A stretch of DNA of 64,000 nucleotides from a virus. The stretch is from positions 1-64,000 of the IMG/VR virus record IMGVR_UViG_3300043465_001479; one strand, 5' to 3'. This document shows positions 6,591-46,126 of this stretch, one piece after another. Below the pieces are notes generated by a model that saw nothing but the letters and a program-made list of their open reading frames with translations, searched no databases and was not told the DNA's origin. Made by a program: the position numbers and the translations under genes. The first letter of the stretch is position 1, and the number at the start of each line of letters is the position of its first letter.

Positions 6591-6846
6591 CGATGCGCTC
6601 CCAAGTGTGTTCGCAGATCCGGCAGGTGCAGACGACCTTGATGGGGAAGGTCAGCCCAGCACCTTGCTCGATGGTCACGAACGACATGGCGCACTTCGGG
6701 CACTCGTCGACTTCAGGGATTGGCTCGACGGTGTCGGACTGCAGCGCAGCGATGACGGCGTCGGTGGCACTCCGGTCAACGACCGGCGGCATGAGGACAG
6801 CCCGCAGGAAGTCCTCCAGAGGGTCGTCGTCCGAGTCGTCCGTCAA
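6583..6846 (-). CDS. Small C4 zinc-ribbon protein
   Basis: I place the start at TTG 6846, which overlaps the recA stop as TTGA, giving 87 residues (MTDDSDDDPLEDFLRAVL). The longer ATG frame to 6966 overlaps recA and encodes low-complexity sequence. The C-terminus has CPKCAMSF and CTCRICEHTWE, a four-Cys zinc ribbon. Function unknown; it is coupled to recA. Confidence 0.7.
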   Translation of the reverse strand: MTDDSDDDPLEDFLRAVLMPPVVDRSATDAVIAALQSDTVEPIPEVDECPKCAMSFVTIEQGAGLTFPIKVVCTCRICEHTWERIDE

Positions 6847-8081
6847 GCCCCCTGCTGGACCGACTTCAACAAGACGTCCGTCACCATCCGCTTGAAGATC
6901 GGATCCGCCACCAGCCGCTTCTCGATCTCCGACTTCTTGCCGAAGGACTCCCCGAGAATCTTCCATGACGTTCCTCCTCCAGAAACAAGCCCAAGCCGTT
7001 CAGCGTGGTCGAGAATAAAGTCCTCGAAGTAGAAGTCGCCCAGAGACTTGCTCTCCGATTCCGACAACATCATGCGGAAGTCGTAACCGACCTTCGCGGT
7101 ACTTGACTTTGACTTGTCGAGAGAAAAGCCAAAATCCGCGTAGAGAGGGCGCTCGCCAAGGTCGTCCATCTTGAACTTGCCGGTCTTCATCTTCATCTCG
7201 GTCCACGACATGAACCCGGGGGCCAGCCCGCCGGGAGTCGTCTCTGGGTTGCCGAACATGACGCCGAGCTTCATGCGGATCTGGTTTGTGAAGAACAGCG
7301 TTGGTCGCTTCCCTGTGTCGGTCATGACCGAGTTGAGAGCAGCGGTGAACTTCCGCACGCCCTTGCCAAGAACACGCGCCTGCACACCCATCAAGTCTTT
7401 CTCGATGGCTTCCTCGATCTCCTTGGCAGGAGTGAGGAATGCGATGGAGTCGATCATCAAGATGTCGCACTTGCCAGACCGCAAGAGCGCCTCGCCAATC
7501 GAGAGCGTCTGCTCCGCGTACTCGGGCACGCTGATGAGCACCTTGTCGAGGTCACAGAAGCGGCTGGCCCATGCTGCGTCGAGCGCGCCTTCGACGTCGA
7601 TGTAAGCGATAACTGGCTCTCGGGGTCGCTTGCAGATGCAGCGGTCCATGTACAGCCAACACTCAGCGCACAGCTTCTGTGCCTCACCGATGGTCGCGTA
7701 GAGAACAGTGGTCTTGCAGGAGGACTTGTGACCAATCAGCGTATGGACACCGCCTTGGGCCCATCCACCCTCCAGTGCAAAGTCGATCGGGAAGACTCCC
7801 GTCGGGATGCGCCGGACCTTCCGAGCTTTGATCTCGGACCCTTGGATGAGCGACTTCTTCCCGTAGGTCTTCATCGTCGCCGCGATTATTTCCGACGACA
7901 GCAGAGCCCCCAGTTGTGACCTTGAGTCGTAACCGGGTTTGATGCGGGACGAGAGGACATCTGCCGTCGTTTCGGGAACCGCATCGTCGACTGCGGCTGA
8001 GATGGTCTGGGCCACCTCGGACGCCTCGGCAGAGGTATCGGTGGAAGTATCTTCAACGGGGATCTTCTTCTTGGATGCCAT
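6843..8081 (-). CDS. recA: RecA-like recombinase with altered Walker A
   Basis: The 412-residue product starts at ATG 8081 (MASKKKIPVEDTSTDTS), preceded by an AAGAGG-like site. After an acidic ~80-residue leader comes the RecA core: IPTGVFPIDFALEGGW, a P-loop reading GHKSSCKTT (residues ~117-125) where GPESSGKTT is normal, AYIDVEGALD, ILMIDSIAFLTP (Walker B), and FFTNQIRMKLGVMFGNPETTPGG (L2). The P-loop Gly before Lys is Cys (codon TGC). A four-Cys insert, LCAECWLYMDRCICK (~137-151), lies right after it and could bind zinc. It likely drives recombination-dependent replication with SSB, the helicase and the nucleases nearby. Confidence 0.94.
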   Translation of the reverse strand: MASKKKIPVEDTSTDTSAEASEVAQTISAAVDDAVPETTADVLSSRIKPGYDSRSQLGALLSSEIIAATMKTYGKKSLIQGSEIKARKVRRIPTGVFPIDFALEGGWAQGGVHTLIGHKSSCKTTVLYATIGEAQKLCAECWLYMDRCICKRPREPVIAYIDVEGALDAAWASRFCDLDKVLISVPEYAEQTLSIGEALLRSGKCDILMIDSIAFLTPAKEIEEAIEKDLMGVQARVLGKGVRKFTAALNSVMTDTGKRPTLFFTNQIRMKLGVMFGNPETTPGGLAPGFMSWTEMKMKTGKFKMDDLGERPLYADFGFSLDKSKSSTAKVGYDFRMMLSESESKSLGDFYFEDFILDHAERLGLVSGGGTSWKILGESFGKKSEIEKRLVADPIFKRMVTDVLLKSVQQGA

Positions 8082-8092
8082 GGAGCCTCTTC

Positions 8093-8779
8093 TCAGAACG
8101 GTGTGGTGGACTTGGTCCCAGACGCGATCTGGCGGATCGCCTTGACCTCGGTCTGGATGCGATCTTCGGTCCACTTCTTTGCGAAGGAGAAGGCGTCGTC
8201 CGTCTCCTCGCGGTAGCAGGGAAGGGAGATGCGGACGTCGATGCGTGCGCTCTCATAATTCCCGATGTTGAGGGTCAGCCCATAGCCGATCTCCACCATC
8301 GCCGGGTTGGTGATGAATGTTCGGACTGCGATCTCTTCGTCCTTAGTTTCAGGGACGCCGATCTTCCCGTAGACCTTGGTGACAGTCGCCGTTGTGGATT
8401 TCACGGTCTCCTTGATGACCGGAGGGGCCTGCGTCCCTGCAACAACCGGCTGCAGCATCGGCTGCTGGGAGGCTTCCGCCACGGTGGCGATGTCCTTGGC
8501 AGCCTTCTTGGTTTTGCGCGCTTCAGGCTTGAGCCGAGGGCGACCCGTCGGTGTCAGGAGCGGCACGCCATTCTCAAACAGGTGGGTCTCAGGAGAGACA
8601 AGGACGCCGTTGACAGTGACGGACTCAGGAGGGTTCGGCGCTTCGGGCTCGGCTGGGGACGTCGCCTGCTGGATAGCAGCTTCAGCGGCTGCCACCTGTG
8701 CGTTGACGGCAGCGATGGCAGCGTCAACGGCGCTGTCGAGGGCAGCGGGAACAGCGATGGGGGAAGAGGCTGGGACCAT
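8093..8779 (-). CDS. Conserved phage protein between recA and the SF2 helicase
   Basis: The start at ATG 8779 gives 228 residues (MVPASSPIAVPAALDS). An Ala-rich helical N-terminus leads into a beta-rich C-terminal domain with YGLTLNIGNYESARIDVRIS. That motif recurs, to my knowledge, in small conserved phage proteins of unknown function. The start codon lies within a copy of the GGACCATATGG palindrome (8773-8786), so binding there could control translation or initiation. A longer frame up to 8980 overlaps the helicase and is not used. Confidence 0.78.
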   Translation of the reverse strand: MVPASSPIAVPAALDSAVDAAIAAVNAQVAAAEAAIQQATSPAEPEAPNPPESVTVNGVLVSPETHLFENGVPLLTPTGRPRLKPEARKTKKAAKDIATVAEASQQPMLQPVVAGTQAPPVIKETVKSTTATVTKVYGKIGVPETKDEEIAVRTFITNPAMVEIGYGLTLNIGNYESARIDVRISLPCYREETDDAFSFAKKWTEDRIQTEVKAIRQIASGTKSTTPF

Positions 8780-8834: not shown

Positions 8835-10190
8835 TCACTCCCACCCTTTCGTTTTGTAGAGGCGATCCCGGTAACCCGCCGACTTGACGCACAAGCTGAC
8901 CTTCGGGTCGATGATGTCGACCACGATGGGGTCTTTCTTCCCTTCAATAGGGCGAAGAATGCGGCCCACAGCCTGCTCAACGTCCGAGAACGGTGTGGTC
9001 AGGAAGATGGAGTCCAACATCGGGATGTCCAAGCCCTCTTCGGCAAACTGGCGAGTCGCGAAAATGACCTGCGCTTCCGCAGCGGTTTCCAGCTCCTCCT
9101 CCTTCAGGCCGCCAACGTAGAAGCCAGTCGTCGGAACGGGTGTCGACTGCCCCGTCTTCCACAGTTGCTTGAACAGCGCCTCAAGCGTGTCGAGGTGGTT
9201 GAGGCGTTCTGAGAGGACGATGGGCTTCCGGCCCGCGACCACCGCGAGGACGATCTGCTCGGCGATCATCTTGTTGCGCGCCGCGTTGCTGCACATGAAC
9301 TTGAGGAGGACGTTCTTCGAGATGACCTCAGGGTTGAGGGTCGGGGTCTGGATGAGCTTGAAGTCCGTCCACACGCGACGCACCTTCGGCTTCATGCGCT
9401 GCTCGGCGGAGGTGAAGATCACTGGACCAATCTGCTTCAGGAAGACCTCTTCAGCCCCGTCCTTGCGGCGAGGGGTCGCGCTCACGCCCAAGCGCCAACG
9501 GGCGCGGAACCGGGTGTGCGCTCGGGACCAAGACTCCGCCGCCGTCCGGTGGCACTCGTCGGTGATGACCAGCCCCGGCCAGTCCCAGAAGTCCTCGCCG
9601 TAGTCGCGGTCGCCAACCAAGCTGTGAACCATCGCGATGGCGACGGAGTAGCCCTTGAACTCGCTGCGGTCCTGCTGAACGATTCCGATCTTCGCTCCGG
9701 GAAGAAACTGCGCGATGCGGTCGCGCCACTGGTTCAGCAGGAACTCTTTGTGAACGATCACCAGAGTTGGGCAGTTCATTCGAGCCATCGCTGCGCACGC
9801 GAAAACGGTCTTCCCCCACCCAGTGGTCGCTCGGATGATGCCTCCACCAAAGCCGTTCCCAAAGGCAGCGGACATCTTGTCGATCGCCTCCTGTTGAGTC
9901 GGTCGAAGAGAACCGGCAAACGTGAAGGGGCCGTCCCACAAGTCCTGACGCCCCGTCGTCGTCATGTCAACGATCTCATGGTGCTCCTTTCGGTTCTCCA
10001 TGAAGTACGAGCGAGGGATCCCAATGAAGTCGGGCTTCTCAACGTAGAGCGGAATGGGTGATGGAGGAGGTCCGGGGTACCCCGGAAATGAACGAGGAGT
10101 GACCGTGAGCGTCGCCTTGAGAGCGCTTTTCTGCATGTGCGTCAGCTCTGCCAACGGAATCCATGCGTGCGTGTCCACGACGATCTTCAT
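8835..10190 (-). CDS. SF2 DNA helicase, RadD/UvsW-like
   Basis: The start at ATG 10190 gives 451 residues (MKIVVDTHAWIPLAELTH). An N-terminal ~90-residue region is followed by RPTQQEAIDKM (Q-motif-like), ATTGWGKTVFA (Walker A, ~121-130), DECHRTAAES (motif II, ~211), VSATPRRKDG (motif III) and C-terminal motifs including LDSIFLTTPFSDVEQAVGRILRP (motif VI). It should unwind or migrate branched DNA. Downstream frames are coupled through ATGA with the 79-residue gene. Confidence 0.93.
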   Translation of the reverse strand: MKIVVDTHAWIPLAELTHMQKSALKATLTVTPRSFPGYPGPPPSPIPLYVEKPDFIGIPRSYFMENRKEHHEIVDMTTTGRQDLWDGPFTFAGSLRPTQQEAIDKMSAAFGNGFGGGIIRATTGWGKTVFACAAMARMNCPTLVIVHKEFLLNQWRDRIAQFLPGAKIGIVQQDRSEFKGYSVAIAMVHSLVGDRDYGEDFWDWPGLVITDECHRTAAESWSRAHTRFRARWRLGVSATPRRKDGAEEVFLKQIGPVIFTSAEQRMKPKVRRVWTDFKLIQTPTLNPEVISKNVLLKFMCSNAARNKMIAEQIVLAVVAGRKPIVLSERLNHLDTLEALFKQLWKTGQSTPVPTTGFYVGGLKEEELETAAEAQVIFATRQFAEEGLDIPMLDSIFLTTPFSDVEQAVGRILRPIEGKKDPIVVDIIDPKVSLCVKSAGYRDRLYKTKGWE

Positions 10191-10426
10191 TTGAGGCGTC
10201 CTGCCTGAAAGTTGTGCAACGCCCGCAAGGAATGCTGGGCAGATGAGGTCCGTGCATTGTGTAACTCGCACTCGCGACGGACAGTTGCGTACCAATCAGC
10301 CGGAGGAAGGTCGGTCGGTAAGCGGGTCATCCACGAGATGGGGATGCGCAAGTAGCCTTCAGAAAACTCAACGAGGACGTCCATCTTGTTCAGCCCACGA
10401 TGGAGGCGGACAGCGAGAACACGCAT
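10187..10426 (-). CDS. Small hypothetical protein
   Basis: The product is 79 residues (MRVLAVRLHRGLNKMDVLV) with a predicted beta N-terminus and helical C-terminus. An ATGA overlap couples it to the helicase. No domain is recognised. Confidence 0.68.
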   Translation of the reverse strand: MRVLAVRLHRGLNKMDVLVEFSEGYLRIPISWMTRLPTDLPPADWYATVRRECELHNARTSSAQHSLRALHNFQAGRLK

Positions 10427-11409: not shown

Positions 11410-12468
11410 TCAGTGAATTCCCATTGCGTTTGGTGATCCAAGAGTCTCAGCCAACTCCAAAGCAGACAGCTCGTCCGGGTCGCGGTTCATCGGAATCTTC
11501 GCGATGCGCGTGGGGATGCGCGTGAGCAGGACGTCCTTCATCCGGTCTGCGGCCTCCATCCCGGGGGTGTCACCGTCAGGGAGAATCACAATGTTCTTGA
11601 AGAAGCGAACGAGCTTCTCGATCTGGATACGGCTGATGTGCGTGCCCATGATGGCGACGCCTTGGTAGCCGTGCTGCCAGAGGTGAATCGCGTCGAAGAA
11701 GCCCTCGACAATGACGCCGGTTCCCTCGCCGCCCTCCTTGAGGCGGACCTCCCCGTAGAGGTAGCGGTCACGCTGGAAGCCAAGAGAGTGTAAAAACTTT
11801 CGTTTGCTCTCCCCTTCAAGTGAACGACCGGAGATGCCTACAAGTCTTTTTTTGCAGTCTCGTATGGGGATGGCAATTCGTCGAGCTTGCCGATGCCAGC
11901 GGAACTCCCAATCGGCGATGGACTTCTCATCCAGCCCGCGCCCCTTGAGGTAGTCAAAGGATTCACCATCGAGAGGATCGAACGCCTGCAGGTCACCATC
12001 CGCCAAGACCGTCTCCGGCACGTCGTAGGCGTAGCCAAGCGCCGCCTGCGCGGTCTTCGCAGAGAGCCGGATGCCACCCACTTCCATCGGACCCGTTGGG
12101 CGCTTCTCGGCGCGCTCCAGCGCAGCCTTCAGCAGGTCGGTCGAGGACAGAGAGTCCCGGTCCTTTGCCAGAACCCACTGGAAAATGTCGGAGAACGCTG
12201 TGGTGTCATGGCCTCCCGCCACCATCAGGGCTCGCAGCCGGGTCAGCAGCTCAATGACGGACCCTTTCGCATTGCAGGTGAAGCAGCGGTAGTGGCTGGG
12301 TCCGTCGTCGATGCGAATGCCAAAAGACGAACTCTTGTCCTCGCGCGTCTTGTGCAGCTTCGTGAAAGGGGCGAACGGGCAAGAGGCGTTCACCCAGCCA
12401 GACATATTCTGTCGGATGCGATTGCACCCAATCTTGTCCAATAGGTCGGTGATGTCCTCGGCTTGCAT
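11410..12468 (-). CDS. dnaG: DnaG-like primase (CHC2 + TOPRIM)
   Basis: The 352-residue product has an N-terminal zinc site: C30 and H39, with C62/C65 in YRCFTCNAKG (CHC2 pattern). Further on come a fold with RGLDEKSIADWEFRWH, VEGFFDAIHLW (TOPRIM Glu) and ILPDGDTPGMEAADRM (DxD). It synthesises primers for the DnaB-like helicase. The protein is shorter than cellular DnaG (~600), lacking the helicase-binding C-terminus. A TGTTAC element at 12,478-12,483 (minus) lies 10 bases upstream of the start. Confidence 0.93.
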   Translation of the reverse strand: MQAEDITDLLDKIGCNRIRQNMSGWVNASCPFAPFTKLHKTREDKSSSFGIRIDDGPSHYRCFTCNAKGSVIELLTRLRALMVAGGHDTTAFSDIFQWVLAKDRDSLSSTDLLKAALERAEKRPTGPMEVGGIRLSAKTAQAALGYAYDVPETVLADGDLQAFDPLDGESFDYLKGRGLDEKSIADWEFRWHRQARRIAIPIRDCKKRLVGISGRSLEGESKRKFLHSLGFQRDRYLYGEVRLKEGGEGTGVIVEGFFDAIHLWQHGYQGVAIMGTHISRIQIEKLVRFFKNIVILPDGDTPGMEAADRMKDVLLTRIPTRIAKIPMNRDPDELSALELAETLGSPNAMGIH

Positions 12469-12893: not shown

Positions 12894-14192
12894 CTAGAAC
12901 AAGTCGCCGATGGGATCGTCGGCAGCCGCGTCGGGACCGCTCGGCACACCAGACGGAGCGAACGCGGGGGCTCCGCCGAAGTTCGCCTTCGGAATCTCAG
13001 AGAAGTCCATACGCTCGAAGTCCCAGTTGCACTCGATCTCTTCGCTCTCGCCTTCCCGCACCTTGAGAGGCTTGAAGGCCATGCGGCGGTTCTTCTTCAT
13101 CTCCTCGGTCTGGATGAGACCGAAGATGAGGTCGGCGTTCCAGCCAGCGACGTCGGTCATGGCGATGCTGTCCGCCTGCACCGTCTTGGCTTGGTTGACC
13201 TTCACCTCGCGGTTGAACTGCATGGTCGCCACGACTGCGGCTTTGCTGCGCTTGGCGATACGCTTCAGCTCGTCAAAGACGTTGGCGGCTCGCTCGGTCC
13301 GGGTGAGCCCGTGGACCTTCAGCAGGTACGCACCGTCGACGATCACGAGGTCCGGCTTCTCGTCCATCACAATGCCTGCGAACGAGTCCATGCTGAAGTC
13401 GAAGTCGCCGCCAACGATGTTCAGGTTGGGGCTGTTCTCAATCGCCTTGATACCGTCACGAATGCGCTTCTCCGTGAACGAGTCGAGCTTGCCACGTCTG
13501 AAGTCGCCGTAGGGAATCCTGAACTTCGTGGCGAGGTAGCGCATCGCCATCGTCTCCTTCGACATTTCTGTCGTCGCGATGAGCACCTTCTTCCCCTGTT
13601 CCCAAGCCGTACCAGCGAGGAGGATCGCCGACCACGTCTTGCCGATACCCATGCGGGCCACGAACAGGACGAGGTCTTCCGGCCAGAGCCCCAGCGTCGA
13701 GTCGTTGATGGTCGGCCACGGAGTCTGGATACCGCGTTCGCCACGCTTGATCTTCTCGTAGTATTCAATGACCTTCCCGCCCAAGCCGGGAATGCTCTCG
13801 ACGAGAGCTGTCCGAGTGTCGAGCTTCCGCAGCGTGCGCAGCAGGTCTTCGACAGCAGCCTGACCCTTCGCAGGTTCGCCCAGATCGAGGATGCCGATGA
13901 GGTTCTTCACGCCCGCGTGAAGCATCCCGTGAAGCTTGCGGTCGTAGGCTGCGTTGATGAGGTACGGCAGCGGGTCCGTCGGAGGGGGGACGATTACTCC
14001 GGTCTCGCGTTCAACGATCGAGAGCGACGGGAGGTCGTTGTAGGTCTTGTTGAAGTCGACCGTGAAGTCGAAGACGACCTTCCCGTCGCCTTCGAGGAGG
14101 TCAGCTCGGAAGCCGGTCTCCGCGAGGTGACGGAGGCTGGCCTTGCCACCAGCAAGAACTGCGGAGGCTAGCGACAAGTCAAGATCGGCCAC
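12894..14192 (-). CDS. dnaB: DnaB-like replicative helicase
   Basis: The 432-residue product carries a RecA-fold helicase C-terminal domain: TPWPTINDSTLGL, ARMGIGKTWSAI (Walker A, ~179-190), KVLIATTEMSKE (H1a-like), LVIVDGAYLLK (Walker B), and AVVATMQFNRE (H3). The N-terminal ~140 residues are helical, as in DnaB. It ends in an acidic DDPIGDLF tail. It works with the downstream DnaC-like loader and primase. Confidence 0.92.
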   Translation of the reverse strand: MADLDLSLASAVLAGGKASLRHLAETGFRADLLEGDGKVVFDFTVDFNKTYNDLPSLSIVERETGVIVPPPTDPLPYLINAAYDRKLHGMLHAGVKNLIGILDLGEPAKGQAAVEDLLRTLRKLDTRTALVESIPGLGGKVIEYYEKIKRGERGIQTPWPTINDSTLGLWPEDLVLFVARMGIGKTWSAILLAGTAWEQGKKVLIATTEMSKETMAMRYLATKFRIPYGDFRRGKLDSFTEKRIRDGIKAIENSPNLNIVGGDFDFSMDSFAGIVMDEKPDLVIVDGAYLLKVHGLTRTERAANVFDELKRIAKRSKAAVVATMQFNREVKVNQAKTVQADSIAMTDVAGWNADLIFGLIQTEEMKKNRRMAFKPLKVREGESEEIECNWDFERMDFSEIPKANFGGAPAFAPSGVPSGPDAAADDPIGDLF

Positions 14193-14819
14193 TCAGCCCC
14201 CAAGGTCTTTTCGGAGTTGCAACGACGCTTCATCTTGCCGCTCGGTCCCCGCACAGGAGACCGCGTGGAAAGTCCCGCGCATAGAATGAAGGATCGACGG
14301 ATAGTCGACGGAGAAGTCTTCAGGCCCCAGCCTAGTGGAAAGCACCGTGGTCTTCCCACGCGTCGACCGGCTCTTGAGCAGGTGCTCCACGTCGCTGATG
14401 CCGAACGTGAAATTGCGAAAGTCGTCCGCTGCAAGGTCGTCGATGACGAGGATGTCGACCGCGCGCACGCGAGACATGATCGATTCCGACGAGTCGAAGT
14501 CTTCGTTCTCCTTGAGGGACTGCCGCAGCTCTTTCACCGTCGTGTAGTAACCGACGTGTCCGTGCTCCCACCCCGCTTTGAGGATCACGACGCCACCGCA
14601 GGTCTTGCCTGAGCCTGCAGGCCCGAAGAGCCAGAAGCCCACTCCCCGGCGAAGCATCGAATGGATGCTGGCGACGTAGCGATGGATCGGACGCTTCAAC
14701 TCCAGCGTCAGCTTCGGGTAGGTAGATTCCCACAGGCGCTCAGGAACGTTCATGCGACGCAAAGCCCACTCGTCGCACACCATCAGCGGAGGCTGGGGAG
14801 GTGCTGGGGGTGCCATCAT
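14193..14819 (-). CDS. dnaC: DnaC/IstB-type helicase loader ATPase
   Basis: The 208-residue product has a DnaC-like AAA+ core: WLFGPAGSGKT (Walker A, ~64-74), VGYYTTVKELRQSLK, DILVIDDLAADD (Walker B) and TTVLSTRLGPEDF (sensor). It probably loads the DnaB-like helicase at the origin. The start lies in tandem ATGs (14819 or 14816); the second overlaps the stop of the initiator gene, so the two are coupled. Size matches short phage loaders. Confidence 0.9.
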   Translation of the reverse strand: MMAPPAPPQPPLMVCDEWALRRMNVPERLWESTYPKLTLELKRPIHRYVASIHSMLRRGVGFWLFGPAGSGKTCGGVVILKAGWEHGHVGYYTTVKELRQSLKENEDFDSSESIMSRVRAVDILVIDDLAADDFRNFTFGISDVEHLLKSRSTRGKTTVLSTRLGPEDFSVDYPSILHSMRGTFHAVSCAGTERQDEASLQLRKDLGG

Positions 14820-16873
14820 TTCTTGGCACCCGACTTCGTCGCTCGATGGGCCGCGAGTAGCTCAGGAGGGGGCACCGCGAACGGATCGTGTTTGACCGAT
14901 TCCAGCCATTCCGCGTACTCGGTCTTGTTCATCGGGGTCTTGATGAGGCGCCGCAGCTCGGCGAAGACCGAGGCGTGGCAGGCGTAGAGCAAGCCGATGG
15001 TCGGGACGCCGTCGCGAGTCTTTGTCAGGAGCGGGCCGAACTTGTCCCAATGGAGCACGAACCCGCGCACGAGATGTTCGACCGTGGCCTCGTCGCCGCC
15101 GTAGCCTTCGAGGAGGTCCGTGATCAGCTTCCCCTCCTTGCGGGCGAGGAGCTTCCCTCCCTCGCGCTTGAACCAAGCGATCTGAGGCACGTCCGGGAAG
15201 GCGGTGCCCATCTCCTCGCGCCATGCCAGCTCGATACGTTGCGCCCCGGGCTTCTGACTCCGGTACGAGGCATCGCTGGTCAGGTTGGCCTTCTTGCGCT
15301 CCTTGGTGCGCTGCTTCTGAAATTTTGCCTCCACCGCAGCCCGACTTCGCTGTTTGGCCTGTTCCACCACCGCCAGCACCGCAGAGAGGTCTGGGGGAAC
15401 CGCCGGGAGGGCCTCCCCAGCCCCGGGAACGGCCTCCTGAGCCTCGATCGGGGGTTCGGGTGGGGTTCGGGTAGGGTCGGGGGGTCTGGTGCGGCTGGGA
15501 GGCGTCACGCGGGGTTCCTCGCTTCGAGATGGGTCCGCCGAACCAGTAACCGATGTTTTCACGTTTCCCGACCGCAAGCCGCCGACGGGGGAAAGGGGGG
15601 CGGGCGGCGCAGGGGGTTTGGGGGTCGGCTCCGGGTCCGGGTCCGGAAACGAGTTCAACAACGAGTTCGAGTTCAGCAGCGAGTTCGTGTTGAGCGGCGA
15701 AGCTACGAAGCCTGAATCGAGATCGCGACCGAGGCAGACGAAGGCTGCCGAAGGTTCGCTGCCTGCACCGAAGGGAGAAAGGATCAAATACGTAGTATTT
15801 GAGCCTTTCCCCGTAGGGGAAGGCATTCTATGTCCATTATGTATGTACGGATTTTCAGCCGTCGTAACTCCCTGAAAACTCGGCTGAAACTCGATGTCGT
15901 ACCCCGTTTCTGATGTTCTCTCAGGGGACATCTGATGTCCCCTCAGGGGACATCGCAGCTCGCTCTCGGCGCTTTCTGACTCGCCACAATTCAGGGACTT
16001 AGCTGAAGCACTTTCGGCGATTTCGGCGAATCCACGTCCGATGAGCACATCGCGCGCTTGGGGACAGCTGATGTCACCGGAAAAATTCCAGACTGCCGAG
16101 TTTTCAAGGGGTTGCAGCAGATTGAGTTGGATGGCGTCGGTCTTCCAGAGGACATCGCCTGCTTCGACGGCAGTCAGAGGCGGATGGAACCAAGAGGGGA
16201 CATCGAACCCCTCGGCGATGGGGAGGACGCTCTTGAAGGGGATGCGCGAGGGCTGAGGCGAGGGCTGAGGCTTCGACTGCTTCAGCTTGGGTCCAGCGGT
16301 CGGCTTGAGGTGGACGACCGGCATTGTGTACCCAGCGGGGAGGGCTCCTGCCTTGCTCAAGACCTCGGCTGATGTCGCGTGCTGGTTGGTTGGGGAGAGC
16401 TTGCGGTAGGACGTTCCCCAGCAAGCCTTGGCGCGCTCGTCGGCCTTCTCGTACCAGTCTTGCTGCACTGCGTCAGCGTAGACGGCTTCCACCCACGTCG
16501 ACCCTTGCGGACGTCGGATGCCAAGCTCGTAGATTTTGTCGCGCCCGGTCCGCCCACCCATCACGATCCAGCCGAGGTCGGCAAGTTTTCGGAGCTGCTT
16601 GTTCACGCGGGGGCGAGAGACGCCGGAGACTTCCGCGAGCTGAGACTGGCTGACCTTGGCTGAGAGGAAGCCGAGCACGGTCCGCTCGCAGAGGTCTTCG
16701 GGACCATATGTTTCCTGTCGCCAGACAAAGGTACGTAGCGCGTCGTAGACGGCGAGAGCCTGCAGACCCATCAGGGATGGGAGGTGGAGTCGGTGGCGGA
16801 GGTGGAGAACTTGGTCGAAGCCGGTCGGGACTACTGCGCTGCTGGAAGTCTGTGCGCGCGCCTGCTTCGCCAT
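14816..16873 (-). CDS. Winged-helix replication initiator-like protein
   Basis: The 685-residue product has an N-terminal winged helix: TVLGFLSAKVSQSQLAEVSG, SRPRVNKQLRKLADLGWIVM (~65-115). A long middle (300-560) is Pro/Ser/Gln-rich with repeats NTNSLLNSNSLLN and PDPDPEPTPKPPAPP. The C-terminal ~130 residues are a folded domain (EEMGTAFPDVPQIAWFKREG). Gene order initiator-loader-helicase-primase fits a phage origin module. The low-complexity middle is encoded by DNA with direct and inverted repeats, so the gene probably holds the origin, as in lambda O. The start is ATG at 16873. Confidence 0.82.
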   Translation of the reverse strand: MAKQARAQTSSSAVVPTGFDQVLHLRHRLHLPSLMGLQALAVYDALRTFVWRQETYGPEDLCERTVLGFLSAKVSQSQLAEVSGVSRPRVNKQLRKLADLGWIVMGGRTGRDKIYELGIRRPQGSTWVEAVYADAVQQDWYEKADERAKACWGTSYRKLSPTNQHATSAEVLSKAGALPAGYTMPVVHLKPTAGPKLKQSKPQPSPQPSRIPFKSVLPIAEGFDVPSWFHPPLTAVEAGDVLWKTDAIQLNLLQPLENSAVWNFSGDISCPQARDVLIGRGFAEIAESASAKSLNCGESESAESELRCPLRGHQMSPERTSETGYDIEFQPSFQGVTTAENPYIHNGHRMPSPTGKGSNTTYLILSPFGAGSEPSAAFVCLGRDLDSGFVASPLNTNSLLNSNSLLNSFPDPDPEPTPKPPAPPAPLSPVGGLRSGNVKTSVTGSADPSRSEEPRVTPPSRTRPPDPTRTPPEPPIEAQEAVPGAGEALPAVPPDLSAVLAVVEQAKQRSRAAVEAKFQKQRTKERKKANLTSDASYRSQKPGAQRIELAWREEMGTAFPDVPQIAWFKREGGKLLARKEGKLITDLLEGYGGDEATVEHLVRGFVLHWDKFGPLLTKTRDGVPTIGLLYACHASVFAELRRLIKTPMNKTEYAEWLESVKHDPFAVPPPELLAAHRATKSGAKK
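15649..15954. other. Candidate replication origin within the initiator gene
   Basis: The stretch has four GAGTTC units (15651-15686, three of them ACGAGTTC or GCGAGTTC). It also has two abutting hairpins sharing a GTA loop: a perfect 8-bp arm pair at 15784-15802 and 15803-15824, arms GCCTTTCCCC/GGGGAAGGC. An AT-richer run lies at 15824-15860. A perfect 21-base palindrome (10-bp arms) at 15934-15954 overlaps an AGGGGACATC repeat, with copies at 15923, 15945 and 16195. Its position in a lambda-O-type gene beside a loader gene supports an origin. I have no direct evidence of function. Confidence 0.6.
16701..16714. repeat. Degenerate GGACCATAYGGTCC copy
   Basis: GGACCATATGTTTC, inside the initiator gene. 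Only the left half is intact. Confidence 0.5.
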
Positions 16874-16971
16874 GAGTGCTCCAGAGTGATCCCGCCTCGG
16901 TCAGCGGGGGCCAATTCCTGCCGGATGTCCCGAAGGCACGCAAACAGATTCGGCATGCTTCGCTGTTGACA

Positions 16972-16999
16972 AAAACGGCGCTCCGAAGAGCGCCGTTTT
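16972..16999 (-). terminator. Rho-independent terminator after the VWA gene
   Basis: AAAACGGCGCTC and GAGCGCCGTTTT flank a CGAA loop; 12-bp arms are perfect. On the minus strand a T-run follows (complement of 16971-16975), ending the MoxR-VWA transcript after its stop at 17023. On the plus strand the stem is followed by TT, so it may act both ways. Confidence 0.88.
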
Positions 17000-17022
17000 T
17001 TCGTTATCTTGCGGGCAGATCC

Positions 17023-19242
17023 TCAACCACCTTTGAGGTGGTTGGAGAACGAGGTGGAGACCAGATCCACCAGTGTTTTCGTCAAGGACTCAAATTTTAC
17101 ACCCTGCTTGACACGCTTCCATCGGCGGCGGTTGCCGAACATCTGCAGGCAGGCAGCATCCTTGATGCCGTCTCCGATCACGAGCGTCGTGGTCTCGACT
17201 TTCAGCTTCGCCGCGCGCATCAGCTCTCTTTGGACGGCACCGTAAGAGGTCTTACCGTCGAGGACGTCGGAGTGGTTGGGATCCCCGTCGGTCAAGAGGA
17301 TGAGGTGCTTCTTCTCGTACCCCGTGCTCAACCAGTTCAGTGCGACTCGGATTGCCGTTGCCATCGGCGTTGTACCGATGGCAGGCATCTCGCTGCTGTC
17401 TGCGACGTCGAGGTTGGGGGCGATGCGTGAGAGGTGAACCGAGTCGCCGCTGCCGTGGAATCCCCACGAGTGCATCTCGACGTTCTGGATCTTCAACGCC
17501 CCTCGCAGGATGCGTGCTGCGCGCTCGACCGCATCTGATGGGAGCCCCTGCATCGAGGAGGATCGGTCAGTGAGGATCAGCACCTTGAACCCGCGCCCAG
17601 ACACGTCGGTGCGGAACACCGGGCCAACCTGACCGGACACCCTCTGTGCAATCAGAGCCTGTACGTCGATCTCAACTCCGTCGTCGGTGAGCGCCTTTGC
17701 GTTTCGATTTTTCACGCGGTGGAAGGTGTCCTTCATGCGCGCCACCGTGCGTTGGTCGTCGGGCTTGAGGGGTGGCACCTTGTAGGAGGCTTCGGTGATG
17801 TCCCTGAAGACCACTCGGGAGCCCACGTTGCGTGTGTTCCATTCTCGCTCTGTCGGTTCAGCCACCTGCTCAAGGGCTTCTTGGATGGTGTCCATCACCT
17901 TGACCATGTCTCCCTCGGACTTATCGAGGAAGGCATCGAGGGCGTCCTTGTTGGAGACGTCGGTCGCATATGCGTCAGCGACGAGCTTCCGAGCGCTGGC
18001 CGAGAGGCTGTGGTCTTTTGACGCCGACGGCTTGTCGTTGTTCACCCGGTCGAGGGCAGCCTGCATGGGAGACTTTGCTGCCTGCCCCATCGTTCGCGCA
18101 GCTTCGAGGAGCTTCTTGAAGGCGTCGATCCGCTCTTCCGGAGTGGCGTCCACCTTGGGTGGTTCCCAATCCGCACCTCCACCTTGAGCGCCACCTTGCC
18201 CGTCGCCTTTGTCAGCCGACGGTTGAGGCTGCGTTGAGAACTGCGCGGAGTCGTCAGGTTGAGTCCCCTTGCCGCCGCCTTTGGCGTCGTCACCGGCCTT
18301 CTGCTTGCTCTTGGCAGGAGGCGCACCATCGAGTCCCGGGGCGCCTCCGTCGTCACCCGCGTCACCGTCACCGTTGCTGCCATCTGCATCATCGGCACCG
18401 CCATCGCTGTCGTCGTTGCCAGCGTCTCCCCCGAAGGCATCACCCATGTCGTCGAGGTCGGTCTTCATGGTCGACTTGCCTGCCTTGGGAGGAGGCGGGA
18501 GCTTCTTGGTGATGCGGATCATCTCGGAGACGATCTGGGTCATCAGCCACTTGCCGATCACGAACGTGGACCCCGGGCCCTTGCGCTCGACCTTCTTCAG
18601 CGAAGCGACCATCGCGGGCTCGAAGCGGTCGAACACACCGGGAGGGATCTTCGCGTTGTAGGCCACGCAGAGGAAGTAGCCGATGATGTCGTCGTGCGCG
18701 GTTGCTTTCTTCTTCTCGACGATGGACCGGCTGTGCTCTTCGAGGCGCTTGTAGCTGCCGGGGTAGAGCATGGCCCAGAGGCTGTTGACGCGATGGTCCT
18801 CGATGATGTTCAGGATCGTGCCGACCATGTTCGTCAGATAGTTGCGGTCGTCTGGCGACATCACCGTACCGAAGGCGGCGAGGGCCTTCGACACCTGCAG
18901 GACGTACTGCTCGCAGAAGTTCTTCTTCGCCTCGAAGTTCGACTTGAACAGGTTGTGCGAGATCTCGTGCTCAACAAATTCGTAGAAGTAGGGGTGGTCG
19001 ACAGGCGCCCCGATGTTGAAACCGTCGGTGTACGCGAACTTCGCCGGGATCAGCTGAAGCTTGCGACCCAAGAGGCGGCTGAAGGTCGACACTGTTTTCG
19101 TCGCTGCGACCAACCGGCCCTGTTGAAGATGCTCCTGCGACTCCTGCGCGAGCAGCTGCCCGTAGCGTTCGAGGCTGGCAAGGTCATTGACCTGTGCGAG
19201 GACGGAATCGAGGGTGATGTTCTTGACGGCGTTCTGGTTCAT
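17023..19242 (-). CDS. Metallopeptidase-like + VWA-domain protein (CobT-like)
   Basis: The start at ATG 19242, 7 bases after AAGG, gives 739 residues; a GTG at 19248 is an alternative. An N-terminal HEISHNLF (HExxH, ~92-99) followed by IIEDHRVNSL suggests a metallopeptidase-like domain (DUF2201 type). A long Asp/Gly/Ala-rich linker (~265-360) leads to a helical region, then a VWA domain with MIDAS motif LTDRSSSM and later GTTPM and LLTDGDPN. This architecture partners with MoxR/CobS AAA ATPases, the next gene. The pair could remodel or unfold a protein target. A cobalt chelatase role is unlikely since no cobalamin genes are present. Confidence 0.9.
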   Translation of the reverse strand: MNQNAVKNITLDSVLAQVNDLASLERYGQLLAQESQEHLQQGRLVAATKTVSTFSRLLGRKLQLIPAKFAYTDGFNIGAPVDHPYFYEFVEHEISHNLFKSNFEAKKNFCEQYVLQVSKALAAFGTVMSPDDRNYLTNMVGTILNIIEDHRVNSLWAMLYPGSYKRLEEHSRSIVEKKKATAHDDIIGYFLCVAYNAKIPPGVFDRFEPAMVASLKKVERKGPGSTFVIGKWLMTQIVSEMIRITKKLPPPPKAGKSTMKTDLDDMGDAFGGDAGNDDSDGGADDADGSNGDGDAGDDGGAPGLDGAPPAKSKQKAGDDAKGGGKGTQPDDSAQFSTQPQPSADKGDGQGGAQGGGADWEPPKVDATPEERIDAFKKLLEAARTMGQAAKSPMQAALDRVNNDKPSASKDHSLSASARKLVADAYATDVSNKDALDAFLDKSEGDMVKVMDTIQEALEQVAEPTEREWNTRNVGSRVVFRDITEASYKVPPLKPDDQRTVARMKDTFHRVKNRNAKALTDDGVEIDVQALIAQRVSGQVGPVFRTDVSGRGFKVLILTDRSSSMQGLPSDAVERAARILRGALKIQNVEMHSWGFHGSGDSVHLSRIAPNLDVADSSEMPAIGTTPMATAIRVALNWLSTGYEKKHLILLTDGDPNHSDVLDGKTSYGAVQRELMRAAKLKVETTTLVIGDGIKDAACLQMFGNRRRWKRVKQGVKFESLTKTLVDLVSTSFSNHLKGG

Positions 19243-19244
19243 GC

Positions 19245-20087
19245 TCACACCTTCTCGGTCAGGGTGTAACCGAAGATCGAGGACACTCGCGCCTTGACCA
19301 TCGTCTGGTCTTCGCCCTCGAACTTGCCGAGGACAATCCGAAGCGCGCGCTCCATCCCGACCGTGGCGCTATCCTCAAGCACCTGAACAACGTCGCGGGG
19401 GCTGAGCGCGTATTCAAGGGACTTCTGTCGGGTCTCCTGCGCGAGCAGCATGACCTTCTTCATGCTGACCGGGTCGACCTTGCCAGCGAAGTGCGCGGCG
19501 ATGATCTTGGCCTCTTCCTCGGGCTGGGGGTAGCCGAGCGAGAGCATGCGGAAGCGGCTCTTGAGGTCTTCGTTCAGTGCGTACACGCCCCCGTAAGCAG
19601 AGGTGTTCATCGTGCCGACCACCCAGAGCTTCGCGTCCTTCTTCAGCTCGAAGACCCGGTTGCACTCAGGCACCTCCATGCGTCGTCGGAAGTCGGCGAT
19701 CGGGTTGAGCACCTTCTGCATCTGGGGCGAGAGCCCGTTGATCTCTTCGAGGACAAGGATGCAGGATCCGACCTCGTTGGCGACCTCAAAAGCCGTCGTG
19801 ATGGGGCCGAGGATGAAGGGGGTCTCATTCCCCTTCAGGACGTACATGCCGAGGAGGTTGGCGCGGCGAACGTCCTCGCTGCAGTCGAAGGTGACGATCG
19901 GCGTCTTCGCCTTCGCAGCGTAGCTCTGGAAGGACATCGTCTTGCCGATGCCCTTGGGTCCGACGAGGATGAGGTTTGACCGGAAGGCGAGTCCATCAAA
20001 GAGCCCGTGGAGGCCCCAGACGTCGGCGTAGGGAAGGTTGTCACGCGCGGCGTAAGTCGTGGACGGGAGGCGTTCGATTGAGGTCAT
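19245..20087 (-). CDS. MoxR/CobS-like AAA+ ATPase
   Basis: The 280-residue product has Walker A VGPKGIGKTMSF (~42-53), FDCSEDVRRANLLGMYVLKG, Walker B CILVLEEINGLSP, sensor 1 WVVGTMNTSAYG and an arginine finger in DLKSRFRML. It matches the MoxR/CobS group that pairs with VWA proteins, and its stop overlaps the start region of the VWA partner. Likely a hexameric ATPase that drives the partner. CobS-like genes are common in T4-like cyanophages, so a phage home is not unique. Confidence 0.93.
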   Translation of the reverse strand: MTSIERLPSTTYAARDNLPYADVWGLHGLFDGLAFRSNLILVGPKGIGKTMSFQSYAAKAKTPIVTFDCSEDVRRANLLGMYVLKGNETPFILGPITTAFEVANEVGSCILVLEEINGLSPQMQKVLNPIADFRRRMEVPECNRVFELKKDAKLWVVGTMNTSAYGGVYALNEDLKSRFRMLSLGYPQPEEEAKIIAAHFAGKVDPVSMKKVMLLAQETRQKSLEYALSPRDVVQVLEDSATVGMERALRIVLGKFEGEDQTMVKARVSSIFGYTLTEKV

Positions 20088-20135: not shown

Positions 20136-20669
20136 TCAGCGCCGCGTTTTCTTTGCGGGGATCACTCCAGAAGGGACGCTGCTTTCGAGCAGGCTCTCCA
20201 GCTCGCCTGATGGCTTGACCACGAGCGCCCACGTCACTTTGTAGAGGGCCTTTGCTTCAGCCTCGGTCAGCTGCCCATTCTCGACGAGGAGCGCGACTTT
20301 GCTGGGGTTCGCGACGTGGACGTGGACCTTGTCGAACGCCTTGGTGATGTCGAGGTTCTTCGATTCAAGAAGCGCCATCAGCGCTTTCTCGTCGGGGGCT
20401 GACGCGACCCGCTTCTCTTTGATCACCGTGTGATTATTGACGGTGAGCCGGAAGCCCCCCTTCTCAGTCACGTCGCCTTTGTCGGCTTCAACAAGAAGGT
20501 TCTCGCGGATGACTTCGCGTCGACCCTTCGAGACCTCTTCGATGAAGTGGACGGCAGCGTAGGCTTCGACTTGCTCTGCGAGCGAGAGTGCAGCCGTAGG
20601 TGTCTCGAACTCACCGCGATGCGTGAGAACGTGGACGATGGCGGCGATGCTGGGGATCTTCTCGGTCAT
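20136..20669 (-). CDS. Hypothetical protein
   Basis: The start at ATG 20669, with GGAGG upstream, gives 177 residues (MTEKIPSIAAIVHVLTHRGE). The middle has a beta-rich region (GGFRLTVNNHTVIKEKRV) and the C-terminus ends in a basic KKTRR. No domain recognised. Its leader carries one of the A-YGRW-T hairpins (20,681-20,696) and a TGTTAC element at 20,705. Confidence 0.75.
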   Translation of the reverse strand: MTEKIPSIAAIVHVLTHRGEFETPTAALSLAEQVEAYAAVHFIEEVSKGRREVIRENLLVEADKGDVTEKGGFRLTVNNHTVIKEKRVASAPDEKALMALLESKNLDITKAFDKVHVHVANPSKVALLVENGQLTEAEAKALYKVTWALVVKPSGELESLLESSVPSGVIPAKKTRR

Positions 20670-20680
20670 GTTGCCTCCGT

Positions 20681-20696
20681 GCGGGAACCATCCCGC
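20681..20696 (-). promoter_or_regulatory. 5'-leader hairpin, A-TGGT-T apex
   Basis: Read on the minus strand GCGGGA-TGGT-TCCCGC, six base pairs, followed 4 bases later by the GGAGG site of the 177-residue gene. Same design and almost the same sequence as the hairpin at 34,846. Confidence 0.7.
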
Positions 20697-20841
20697 GTGC
20701 TGGAGGAGTAACACCGATTTCCACGGCTTCACCGTGCGGTTTTTGACGACGTCAACCCAGAGAAGAGGGGTTGAACGCTCACTCCGGCAGCCGCGTGGTC
20801 AGGGCTGGCTTCGGCCACCGTGTAGTTTTCTGCTCATCAGT

Positions 20842-21565: not shown

Positions 21566-22393
21566 TCAGAAGGGCACCGACCCCCGCCAACCGGGCAAAA
21601 CCAAGTAGAGGTGCTTCTCAAGGTCTTGAAGACGTTCTTGGACCATCTTCTGCTGCTCCAGCTGTGTCCGACTCAGGCGCTTCCCGTGCAGATCCCACTC
21701 CTCGAACAGCTCATAGGTCCGAGGCCAGTGCTGCTTCACGATCTCGGCGACAGCGTTGGCATAGACCCGGATCTCCTGCTGGGCGTTCGGCGCCATCCGC
21801 AGGCTGAGGAAGTGCAACCAGTTTCGCAGGTTCCCCTTCACGCGCATCTGTGTGTAGCGCGAGACCGGCGTGTTCACGCGTGCGACTTCGCGCACAAGTC
21901 CGAGTTCAAGTGAGTTCTCGTATCGATCGTATATCTCCTCTTGCTCGTTGCGGAATCCGCTCTGCAGCGCCCCGGCGATGTGGGGGTCGAGGGGTTCCAG
22001 CGCGGAGCCCTGCTTGTTCGTGTCCGACTGCCTGACCATGCGCTCCAGCGGGGGCACGTAGTGGAGGTTCGGCATCTGGGTGTAGCGCGCGGACAGCTCG
22101 TTGTAGGAGAGGGTCCGGTGCCTCATCCACTCACGCGCCACGAAGATCGGCAGCCGCACCTCGATGAGCAGATCGCACATCTCGAACGGGGTGTGGTGCC
22201 CTTCGCGATAGAGGTAGGTCAAGAGGCCGAGGTCGCCCTTGGGGTGGTCCGGGTAGGGCTCCCACGAGACGAAGCCCCCGCTCGTCGACATACGAGCGGC
22301 CTCGATGATGGACTCTTCGGCTCCCATCCAGTCAATCAGTTGAACGTAGCCAGCATCGAGGACAGCAGTCCGGTCATTTATCTGCAAAGGCAC
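21566..22393 (-). CDS. thyX: FAD-dependent thymidylate synthase
   Basis: The 275-residue product contains the ThyX signature RHRTLSYNELSARY (~91-104) and EHHTPFEM-like YREGHHTPFEMCDL for substrate binding; PVSRYTQMRVKGNLRNWLHFLSLR holds the flavin/dUMP-binding residues. It makes dTMP from dUMP using folate and FAD. With dCMP deaminase (28,063), MazG (26,864) and dNMP kinase (47,925) it forms a nucleotide supply set. Confidence 0.95.
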   Translation of the reverse strand: MPLQINDRTAVLDAGYVQLIDWMGAEESIIEAARMSTSGGFVSWEPYPDHPKGDLGLLTYLYREGHHTPFEMCDLLIEVRLPIFVAREWMRHRTLSYNELSARYTQMPNLHYVPPLERMVRQSDTNKQGSALEPLDPHIAGALQSGFRNEQEEIYDRYENSLELGLVREVARVNTPVSRYTQMRVKGNLRNWLHFLSLRMAPNAQQEIRVYANAVAEIVKQHWPRTYELFEEWDLHGKRLSRTQLEQQKMVQERLQDLEKHLYLVLPGWRGSVPF

Positions 22394-43414: not shown

Positions 43415-46126
43415 TCACCGCTCAGTGTTGAAGTAGCAGTGTCCATAAACGAAGTCGACGAACGCGGTGCGTGCAGTGGTGCCGACGAGCTTGAATAGCT
43501 GAAGCTGGATACCGAACAGGTCGGCACTGGTCGGTACTGGTGCGCCGGTCTGGGTCTGCACGAGGACATCATCGATGTAGTACGCAACGGAGGAGGCAGT
43601 GCGGTCCCACTCGATACGAAGAACGTACCAAGTGTTCGCAGCAATCGCCGACTCCTGTGAGGATGTGTTTACGCCGTCGTTGCCGGTCACTGTGAACCAG
43701 ACATTTGTACCGAGCGCGGCGCGCTGGTACTCGAACATCGCGTAGTCGGTCCCTGCGGTCTGACCAGCGGTGTTTGAGAACCCGAAGCGGAACACATACT
43801 CCTGCAAAGCTGTGGAAAGAATCGAGAACTGAACGCGCGCACTGCACACCAGTTTGCCGTTATTGGGCCGGGTCAGATCGGTTGTGCCGAAAACGTACTG
43901 GATTCCTGAGGTGGCAGCGACGCCTGTGTTCATCGACGAGATACCGAAGCTGTTGTTCGTGAGCCCCGCGACCGGCGCCGACGTTTGACCTGCGACAGCT
44001 CCCGTCGAGACCTCTGCCCACCGACTGTCGCTTGATATCGGTTGCCCGCTTGTCCGAACCATGTCGTCGATGAACTCGAACGAATGAAGCGCGCGTTTTG
44101 GTTCTTCGACACCGCCGCCGAGGTGGGTGGTATCTGACTGCACCCATAAGGCGAAAGAATTCGTGATGGTGGCGTTCGTACCTGCGATCGGAGCGCCTGC
44201 TACATAGAGAGTCGCAGCTTCCGATATGGTGGACGCAGCGGTGAACGAGTAGGTTCGGTTTCCGACGAGGGTCGTGGCCTGTAAACCGATGCTCCCCGAG
44301 TTGTACTGGATGGATGCTGTTGGGATGGTAGGTCCAAGAATGACGTCAAAGACGGGAGTGCCTGCTGTCTGTCCCGTCAGCGTCTGTCCCGACGCGAACA
44401 GCGCAGCAAACTTTCCTTCCGTCGTGTCAGCGGATGTTGCTGACGAAATTAAGACCGGCCCCGTGAGTCGCCCTGCATAGTTCTGCGAGGCTCCCGTGGG
44501 AGGCGCTACAAGAATGCCATACGCAGTGGTAACGAACGTCCCTCCGGGGTTCACGTTCGTTGTGGGTACTCGGATGCCTGCGGCGGACAAGATCGTTGTG
44601 TTGGTCCCTGCCTTTGGAAGAGACACCTCCAGCCCGACCGCGTTCGAGATCGTGGATGCGCCGACAAAACTATAGGTCTGACTTTCAAGACGACTGCTTC
44701 TCTGTAGGGCAAGCGCTCCAGTGTTGAACTGGATGGTCCCGCTGCTCAGAGCGAAGTCGCTGATCTCAGTGCTGGCAGGTTGAGCCGTCAGGCCGAGTGG
44801 GACAAGCCCCAAACTGGTCACGCCGTTGGAAGACCTGTCGCTGGCCACGAGAACCGGAGAGTAGCTGAGAACACCCGAGTCCCATCCCGTGCCCACCTGA
44901 ATGCCGACGGCTGCACCACCTCCCGTACCGGGCGTCACGTTGGCGATTTCAATTCCCGCCAACCCTACGGATGTGCGCGTACCCGTACCACTCGCAGTGA
45001 TACGAAGACCAGTGGCGACACCGTAGTCGCCGCCGAACGTACCGATGTTGACCTCCACACCGCGTGCGTTCAGCGTCCCGCCTACAGCTGCCTTGGTGAC
45101 ATTCGGCATGACGACACGGTTGCCGTACCACGTCAGTGTGTTGGTGGACGTGTGCGTGAGCCCTCCGAGGGACGCGTCAAGCAAAACACCGTGATATGTG
45201 GACGGAGACACACCAGCTGACTTGGTGATCACAGGACTGTCGAGTTCCAGCATTGCGAAGTCAGCTGCGTTCGTTCCCACGTAGTTGGTTGCCCAGTCAA
45301 TCTCGATTCCCTTGGTCGGGTTTCCAGATGCACTGAGGTACTGGCGCAGCCCCGTGGTGCCGGTGCTGCGAACGTCCATGTCCAGAAGACGGCCTGTGCT
45401 TGAACTTGCACTGGAAAGCGTCAGTGCGGTGGCTCCTGCGCTCGATCCCGGCTGGATCGTGGTGTGACCGCTTTTGCCAATGGAAACGCGTGTGGTGCCG
45501 CTATCACGGGCTCGGAAGATGTCATCAGAAACTGTGATGTTGTTGACATCCAGTGTTGATCCCGGCGTCGCGGAACCAACGCCCAAGCGGTCGTTGGTGT
45601 TGTCCCAGAACAGGTTGGTGTTGTCCTGCGTGTACACGCCGGACGCCCCTGCAAACACGACGGAGCCCGCCGTGAAAGCCGTCGCAGTGCCCGTGCCCCC
45701 GTTCACGACACCAACCGTTCCGCTCAGGCCGATGGTGATCGACCCTGCGGCGTTGACGATGCCAATGTTCGTGCCCGTTGTGAGTGTAGCCTTGTCGAAG
45801 TGGCCATTCGCCGTGTCCCCGATGAGGACTTGGCCGTTCGTCGGCGCGCTTCCAGCATAGGTGTGGATGCGACCGCCAGCCCCGACGGCGAAGTTGCTGA
45901 GAACCTCAAACGGATGCGCCACAGGAACCACGCCGATGCCGACTCGCGAGTTGATCGTGTCGACGTCGAGCACTGTGACGGTGCCAAGGGCGTTCTGCAC
46001 TCGGAACGCAGTGGTGCTGTTCGTCTTCGCGAGCACGGCACCGCCGATCTCCAGCGAGTCTCCCGCGACGGAAGGAAACTGGGCCGTGGTACCGCTGCCG
46101 ATGACGAGAGGCTTCTGTGTGGCCAT
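43415..46126 (-). CDS. Tail fibre/adhesin with lectin-like C-terminus
   Basis: The 903-residue product begins MATQKPLVIGSGTTAQFPSV and has many Gly/Thr/Ser/Asn repeats, including DTINSRVGIGVVPV and WDNTNDRLGVGSATPGSTLD, common to phage fibres. The last ~200 residues (YVFGTTDLTRPNNGKLVCSA ... WYVLRIEWDRTASSVAYYID) resemble a concanavalin/LamG-like beta sandwich for sugar binding. No endosialidase-type chaperone is visible. The protein probably contacts the host surface. Confidence 0.85.
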   Translation of the reverse strand: MATQKPLVIGSGTTAQFPSVAGDSLEIGGAVLAKTNSTTAFRVQNALGTVTVLDVDTINSRVGIGVVPVAHPFEVLSNFAVGAGGRIHTYAGSAPTNGQVLIGDTANGHFDKATLTTGTNIGIVNAAGSITIGLSGTVGVVNGGTGTATAFTAGSVVFAGASGVYTQDNTNLFWDNTNDRLGVGSATPGSTLDVNNITVSDDIFRARDSGTTRVSIGKSGHTTIQPGSSAGATALTLSSASSSTGRLLDMDVRSTGTTGLRQYLSASGNPTKGIEIDWATNYVGTNAADFAMLELDSPVITKSAGVSPSTYHGVLLDASLGGLTHTSTNTLTWYGNRVVMPNVTKAAVGGTLNARGVEVNIGTFGGDYGVATGLRITASGTGTRTSVGLAGIEIANVTPGTGGGAAVGIQVGTGWDSGVLSYSPVLVASDRSSNGVTSLGLVPLGLTAQPASTEISDFALSSGTIQFNTGALALQRSSRLESQTYSFVGASTISNAVGLEVSLPKAGTNTTILSAAGIRVPTTNVNPGGTFVTTAYGILVAPPTGASQNYAGRLTGPVLISSATSADTTEGKFAALFASGQTLTGQTAGTPVFDVILGPTIPTASIQYNSGSIGLQATTLVGNRTYSFTAASTISEAATLYVAGAPIAGTNATITNSFALWVQSDTTHLGGGVEEPKRALHSFEFIDDMVRTSGQPISSDSRWAEVSTGAVAGQTSAPVAGLTNNSFGISSMNTGVAATSGIQYVFGTTDLTRPNNGKLVCSARVQFSILSTALQEYVFRFGFSNTAGQTAGTDYAMFEYQRAALGTNVWFTVTGNDGVNTSSQESAIAANTWYVLRIEWDRTASSVAYYIDDVLVQTQTGAPVPTSADLFGIQLQLFKLVGTTARTAFVDFVYGHCYFNTER

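Follow-up and report, generated by a model that had tools for sequence, protein, structure and literature searches.

A virus-encoded MoxR-class ATPase and its HExxH- and VWA-containing partner at a replication locus

What might a virus do with a MoxR-class ATPase and, directly beside it, a protein that joins an HExxH motif to a VWA domain? Virus record IMGVR_UViG_3300043465_001479 (IMG/VR, 109,966 bases) encodes such a pair within the 64-kb stretch of it that we analysed, hereafter the window. An earlier note, made from the sequence alone, had placed the pair in a replication cluster and proposed that it could be a protein-remodelling or counter-defence machine.

The ATPase and its partner

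Both open reading frames of the pair were confirmed at the positions given, and the terminator that the earlier note had placed at the edge of the unit is a strong hairpin. The features of this locus are as follows.

20136..20732, minus: 198-residue protein directly upstream of the ATPase; same order in relatives L001-L003
19245..20087, minus: MoxR-class AAA+ ATPase, 280 residues, assigned from AAA_5, PHROG 249, PDB matches and a tree
19938..19961, minus: Walker A, GPKGIGKT, residues 43-50; invariant in close relatives
19743..19760, minus: Walker B, ILVLEE, residues 110-115; a D-to-E variant whose first acidic residue is E
19554..19556, minus: arginine finger R178, in LNEDLKSRF, assigned by motif position; invariant in close relatives
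17023..19248, minus: partner, 741 residues from GTG (739 from the ATG at 19242), with a metallopeptidase-like N-terminal domain, an acidic linker and a C-terminal VWA domain
18475..19143, minus: N-terminal domain, residues 36-258; AlphaFold pLDDT 90.7, pTM 0.87, 32 sequences
18955..18969, minus: HExxH motif, HEISH, residues 94-98; invariant in 26 relatives and 32 N-terminal domains
18790..18810, minus: NxxEDxR motif, NIIEDHR, residues 147-153; invariant in the same two sets
18151..18474, minus: acidic linker of low complexity and rich in Gly, residues 259-366; 24 D/E and 26 G among 108 residues
17026..17613, minus: VWA domain, about residues 546-741, with fold matches to the NorD VWA domain
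17551..17568, minus: MIDAS motif DRSSSM, residues 561-566; T627 and D654 complete the MIDAS
16971..17000, no strand: bidirectional hairpin terminator that separates the pair from the replication genes; strong, z -4.5

If the partner starts at GTG, the two frames share 4 bases; the ATG two codons further on, preceded by AGAAGGTG, is at least as likely a start. The close viral relatives L001-L004 share the order 198-residue protein, ATPase, partner, replication initiator, DnaC, DnaB and primase, and the terminator is kept in L001 and L003 and absent in L002. The 198-residue protein had no significant family match in Pfam or PHROG. Both genes are under purifying selection: dN/dS is near 0.2 in the partner and 0.01-0.07 in the ATPase, which is strongly conserved (96-99%). 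Together with the invariant residues described below, this shows that the features of the pair are not a product of chance.

The ATPase matched AAA_5 in Pfam (1.7e-20) and PHROG 249 (7e-20), which is labelled porphyrin biosynthesis/CobS; in the PDB it matched CbbQ (5e-18) and NorQ (4e-16), and CobS more weakly (5e-5). Its AAA_5-type core, Walker motifs, sensor-1 (N161) and sensor-2 (R231) residues, recognized as sequence motifs, and arginine finger, together with the complete MIDAS of the neighbouring VWA protein, mark it as MoxR-class. All of the catalytic motifs that the earlier note had called intact were found, Walker B having E where D is usual. In a maximum-likelihood tree of 72 ATPases, whose long branches limit deeper reading, the window ATPase falls in a 22-row viral clade (support 100/99), separate from the cellular CobS clade (100/100) and the NorQ/CbbQ clade (100/99), and its nearest neighbour after close kin is an archaeal metagenome locus, L051. 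Cyanophage CobS lies nearer to cellular CobS in the same tree, with weak support (93/69).

The VWA half of the partner is recognizable by fold. Residues 468-734 of the model aligned with the NorD VWA domain (VIA-align Z 20.4, 253 residues aligned, rmsd 6.0; Foldseek 3e-9), followed by Rea1-MIDAS (Z 17.2), and the Pfam VWA match was sub-threshold only. PHROG, NCBIfam and PADLOC searches with the partner gave nothing useful. The linker has pLDDT below 50 and is the partner's least conserved region. HEISH and DRSSSM are present as previously claimed.

The fold search with the whole partner model tested the VWA half only; we therefore modelled the N-terminal domain separately. The model runs from a long helix through two short strands to the HExxH helix and then a long NxxEDxR helix, a predicted order of elements that resembles zincins. 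Against the PDB, this domain gave no strong match (best Z 4.7, Foldseek E 0.46). Among its low-scoring fold matches are four enzymes with HExxH (ArdC, abylysin, selecase and IRAP), which are at most suggestive of an HExxH-enzyme fold in the model. The CobT and NorD N-terminal domains were not among the PDB fold matches listed, which excludes nothing.

Profile searches did not bear out two family assignments of the earlier note. Pfam searches with the partner and its close relatives gave no curated family match and no metallopeptidase HMM for residues 1-250. The earlier note had named the failure of HMM searches to place residues 1-200 in a metallopeptidase family as a refuting result, and taken literally the outcome goes against it. 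DUF2201 (PF13203/PF09967) proteins carry HExxH and VWA on one chain; the proposed DUF2201/COG3864 identity of the partner was not reproduced, as PF13203 matched nothing in the window record or its close relatives. The DUF2201 profile itself gave one sub-threshold match in 120 genomes, which made it unusable as a comparison profile.

Conservation gave a more specific picture. Across 26 viral relatives of 13-84% identity, the only invariant residues were H, E and H of HExxH, N, E, D and R of NxxEDxR, and D, S, S, M, T, K, T, D and G of the VWA domain; in DRSSSM, all but R and the middle S were invariant. H94, E95, H98 and E150, with the rest of NxxEDxR, were also invariant among 32 N-terminal domains, a set that was partly motif-selected, and E150 is likely to be the third metal ligand. 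Because invariance across the 26 relatives is confined to these two motifs and the VWA residues, we consider it very likely, judging from sequence, that the N-terminal domain holds a metal-binding, probably zincin-like site.

Patterns containing ED.R or HE had supplied part of the 26 relatives, and we therefore also counted relatives reached by motif-independent routes. Starting from the ATPase, ten lineages have a partner with HExxH (L010-L012, Mosig, DalanDe, Sticker17, Mareelih, Cantare, Teatealatte and TIN4); EDxR is not clear in Mareelih, and G replaces N of NxxEDxR in Cantare. Three lineages have no HExxH: HHTV-2, whose partner gene is split (PMC8651126), and the short faecal contigs L165 and L166. 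Cece has no VWA partner near its ATPase. Starting from the VWA end, relatives L120-L123 have both HExxH and NxxEDxR, as do all five of the cyanophages S-PM2, S-ShM2, S-CRM01, ACG-2014f and S-CAM3. Loss of HExxH in close relatives, which would have counted against the earlier note, was not found: every close relative retains the motif, as do nearly all of the distant ones.

Three relatives differ in detail. The 'peptidase' of S-CAM3 (L159, 3001-3226) has a start annotated too late, with HExxH in the open frame upstream. On faecal phage contig L166, positions 264-2897 form a single 878-residue frame that both matches AAA+ and contains a DASGS motif; it may be a fusion of ATPase and VWA that lacks HExxH. 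In Gordonia phage GMA6 (L126, 2738-3937), the Walker A of the partner ATPase is altered, reading GPTGCAKT in place of GxxGxGKT.

Related pairs and the replication neighbourhood

The earlier note had regarded an HExxH-VWA fusion beside a phage origin as unusual. The architecture is in fact already known: counting the cyanophage-type 'peptidase' alone, 463 phage records contain a relative, and Iyer et al. 2021 described a MoxR and metallopeptidase-vWA pair in group 2.2 jumbo phages, proposing a role in virion assembly (PMC7824862). Judged by its published architecture, the jumbo-phage pair is like ours, a MoxR ATPase beside a vWA protein whose N-terminal domain is a metallopeptidase. The window partner has every element expected of viral pairs of this kind, the phage 'CobT-like' and 'peptidase' genes included: an HExxH-NxxEDxR N-terminal domain, an acidic linker, a MIDAS-bearing VWA domain and a neighbouring ATPase. 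The cyanophage 'peptidase' and 'CobS' (PHROG 459 and 249 type, for example S-PM2 p119-p120) likewise share HExxH, NxxEDxR, MIDAS, an adjacent ATPase and replication neighbours, but their gene order is reversed, with the partner first. Gordonia phages encode a 'CobT-like cobalamin biosynthesis protein' with an AAA-ATPase in the same order and architecture as the window pair, although their ATPase is less than 30% identical to that of the window. A scan of the genome collection returned only four loci, three of them archaeal.

The window pair has ThyX on one side and, on the other, genes for an O-like initiator, DnaC, DnaB, primase, helicase, UvsX and exonuclease, in agreement with the replication cluster described earlier. 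Its neighbours include the following.

21566..22393, minus: ThyX thymidylate synthase (Pfam Thy1, 3e-46)
14816..16873, minus: O-like replication initiation protein (PHROG 678, 1e-7)
14193..14819, minus: DnaC-like helicase loader (PHROG 50, 8e-15)
12894..14192, minus: DnaB-like replicative helicase (PHROG 19, 1e-49)
11410..12468, minus: DNA primase (PHROG 47, 2e-43)
8835..10295, minus: DNA helicase, ResIII type (PHROG 16, 1e-48; Pfam ResIII)
6843..8174, minus: UvsX-like recombinase (PHROG 97, 9e-39)

Similar settings recur elsewhere. In cyanophages the order is gp47-gp46-peptidase-CobS-gp45-gp44; primase and DnaB are near the DalanDe pair, and ThyX and DnaE near that of Cantare. Around 26 viral loci, 10 neighbours matched MCM and 9 matched Rad51/RadA, and by tblastn MCM and/or RadA lay near 14 of the 26 (L028 through a 32-residue end match only); these are raw counts with no background control, and many of the loci are inter-related, partly belonging to one archaeal-type virus group whose RadA proteins are 65-80% identical. 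In Mareelih and Sticker17 the pair lies away from annotated replication genes. The pair thus often adjoins genes of replication or recombination that belong to unrelated types (DnaB, MCM/RadA, gp44-47), which supports, and does not prove, a role connected with them.

A phage origin had also been claimed beside the pair. Within the O-like gene, window positions 15909-16206 contain four short repeats, two of which form a dyad, GATGTCCCCTCAGGGGACATC, and could possibly be origin iterons as in lambda. The repeats lend the claim weak support and cannot serve as proof of an origin, as they are not conserved in L001-L003.

Two further observations concern other frames. The DnaB of close relative L002 (13194-15737) carries a LAGLIDADG intein inside its helicase domain, and the window DnaB has none. 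Elsewhere in the window, a 903-residue open frame (43415-46126, minus) gave no match in Pfam and PHROG searches.

Possible functions of the pair

We tentatively favour the view that the pair is a virus-encoded MoxR/VWA remodelling machine whose zincin-like N-terminal site most likely cuts replication or recombination proteins presented to it. The ATPase would form a hexameric ring, as its family suggests, on which the VWA domain of the partner would dock, gripping a peptide of the substrate protein through the MIDAS metal. ATP hydrolysis would then pull or twist the flexible acidic linker, as is supported for NorQD, in which a finger of the VWA protein enters the pore of the MoxR ring and the linker is remodelled (PMC13036017); the layout of the window pair fits this. 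The presented protein would most likely be cleaved at the N-terminal site formed by H94, E95, H98 and probably E150, since the conserved metal site is most simply read as a peptidase acting on a VWA-bound protein. As the unit keeps company with replication genes of several unrelated kinds, its most likely substrates would be proteins, host or viral, at the apparatus for viral replication or recombination. The broader part of the original proposal, a protein-remodelling machine, is probably right, and its description of a MoxR-VWA pair with HExxH and MIDAS intact is borne out.

The N-terminal site might instead bind metal and dock a target enzyme without cutting it, making the pair a metal-insertion or enzyme-activation chaperone like NorQD or CbbQO. 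NorQ/CbbQ and NorD are the nearest solved relatives of the two subunits, and NorD has the same layout of N-terminal domain, linker and VWA. Yet the window ATPase lies outside the NorQ/CbbQ clade, the NorD/CbbO-type partners that we fetched have no HExxH in their N-terminal 400 residues, and the invariant HExxH glutamate and the NxxEDxR helix look zincin-like rather than like a docking surface. We consider this chaperone role rather unlikely.

A serious rival, if on balance unlikely, is the role in virion assembly or maturation that was proposed for the jumbo-phage pair, in which the machine would help to build the head or tail and its peptidase domain would trim structural proteins. An analogy with the tail system of the Acidianus two-tailed virus points the same way, ATV ORF892 being among the fold matches of the whole partner model. 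Against it stands the setting of the pair in the window, in cyanophages, in DalanDe and in archaeal-type viruses, which is among replication or recombination genes, not structural ones.

The other half of the original proposal, a counter-defence machine that would dismantle a host defence complex, fared worse, and we regard it as very unlikely. The N-terminal domain has a weak and not distinctive fold match to the anti-restriction protein ArdC (Z 4.5), but PADLOC returned no match to the partner and weak generic matches only to the ATPase, no defence or counter-defence genes were seen among the neighbours, and the ATPase is highly conserved, unlike typical fast-evolving counter-defence genes.

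CobS, CobT and the B12 label

Many surveys count viral cobS and cobT as B12 auxiliary metabolic genes, and the role of cyanophage cobS in B12 synthesis has been stated to be unknown (PMC9983427). The CobS-CobT cobaltochelatase resembles the window pair in combining an AAA+ protein with one built of N-terminal domain, acidic linker and VWA. None of 30 cellular CobT proteins extracted from 120 genomes has HExxH, however; at the positions corresponding to HExxH and NxxEDxR they have RGxADxxALxxxxHD and ExxRxE, a pattern that the window partner lacks. The window record gave no match to PF06213, the CobT N-terminal profile, and CobT_C was matched weakly in two of four close relatives (E 0.057).

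Two bacterial proteins with HExxH and EDxR bridge this gap. One, on contig MKWR01000013.1 of a Lysobacterales metagenome genome (L052), matches Pfam CobT at 1.4e-16 and is accompanied by an ATPase gene of its own some 2 kb upstream; the other, from another bacterial genome (G022/L084), matches Pfam CobT at 5e-8. With its acidic linker removed, a cellular CobT profile found L052 (5e-6) and L084 (1e-3), against 1.1 for the best shuffle, and the viral N-terminal profile found the phage 'peptidase' domain and several of the 'CobT-like' ones, with values from 5e-13 (DalanDe) to 2e-7. Because of these two results, we regard the viral and cellular CobT N-termini as probably remote homologues, one with a metal site and one without. 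Direct profile-profile comparison of the viral and CobT N-terminal domains was weak (p 0.025, then 0.006). A match of L120 to CobT was discarded, its signal coming from the acidic linker alone.

What is new here is that HExxH is missing from all the cellular CobT examined and kept in nearly all viral relatives, that the window ATPase falls outside cellular CobS, and that replication or recombination neighbours of the pair are often of unrelated types. This contrast, the position of the ATPase and the recurrent replication and recombination neighbours disfavour a B12 reading of phage cobST, and the window pair is probably not a cobaltochelatase subunit. It is highly improbable that the pair boosts host B12 as auxiliary metabolic CobS and CobT subunits acting with host CobN: that role has been published for viral cobST (PMC8651126) and agrees with the PHROG 249 label and the weak CobT_C matches, but, besides the points above, neither CobN nor ribonucleotide reductase was found in the 110-kb, possibly incomplete, record.

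A wider proposal, which we put forward as doubtful, is that the 'cobST' genes so widespread among viruses have no part in B12 synthesis but encode ATP-driven metallopeptidases that clear or process replication and recombination proteins, CobT having arisen by loss of the peptidase site. The metal site, found in nearly all sampled viral partners and in no examined cellular CobT, makes the 'cobST' label directly testable, and it joins two literatures, that on 'cobST' metabolism and that on the jumbo-phage MoxR/metallopeptidase-vWA pair. As for the bacterial L052 and L084 genes, our guess is that they sit on mobile elements.
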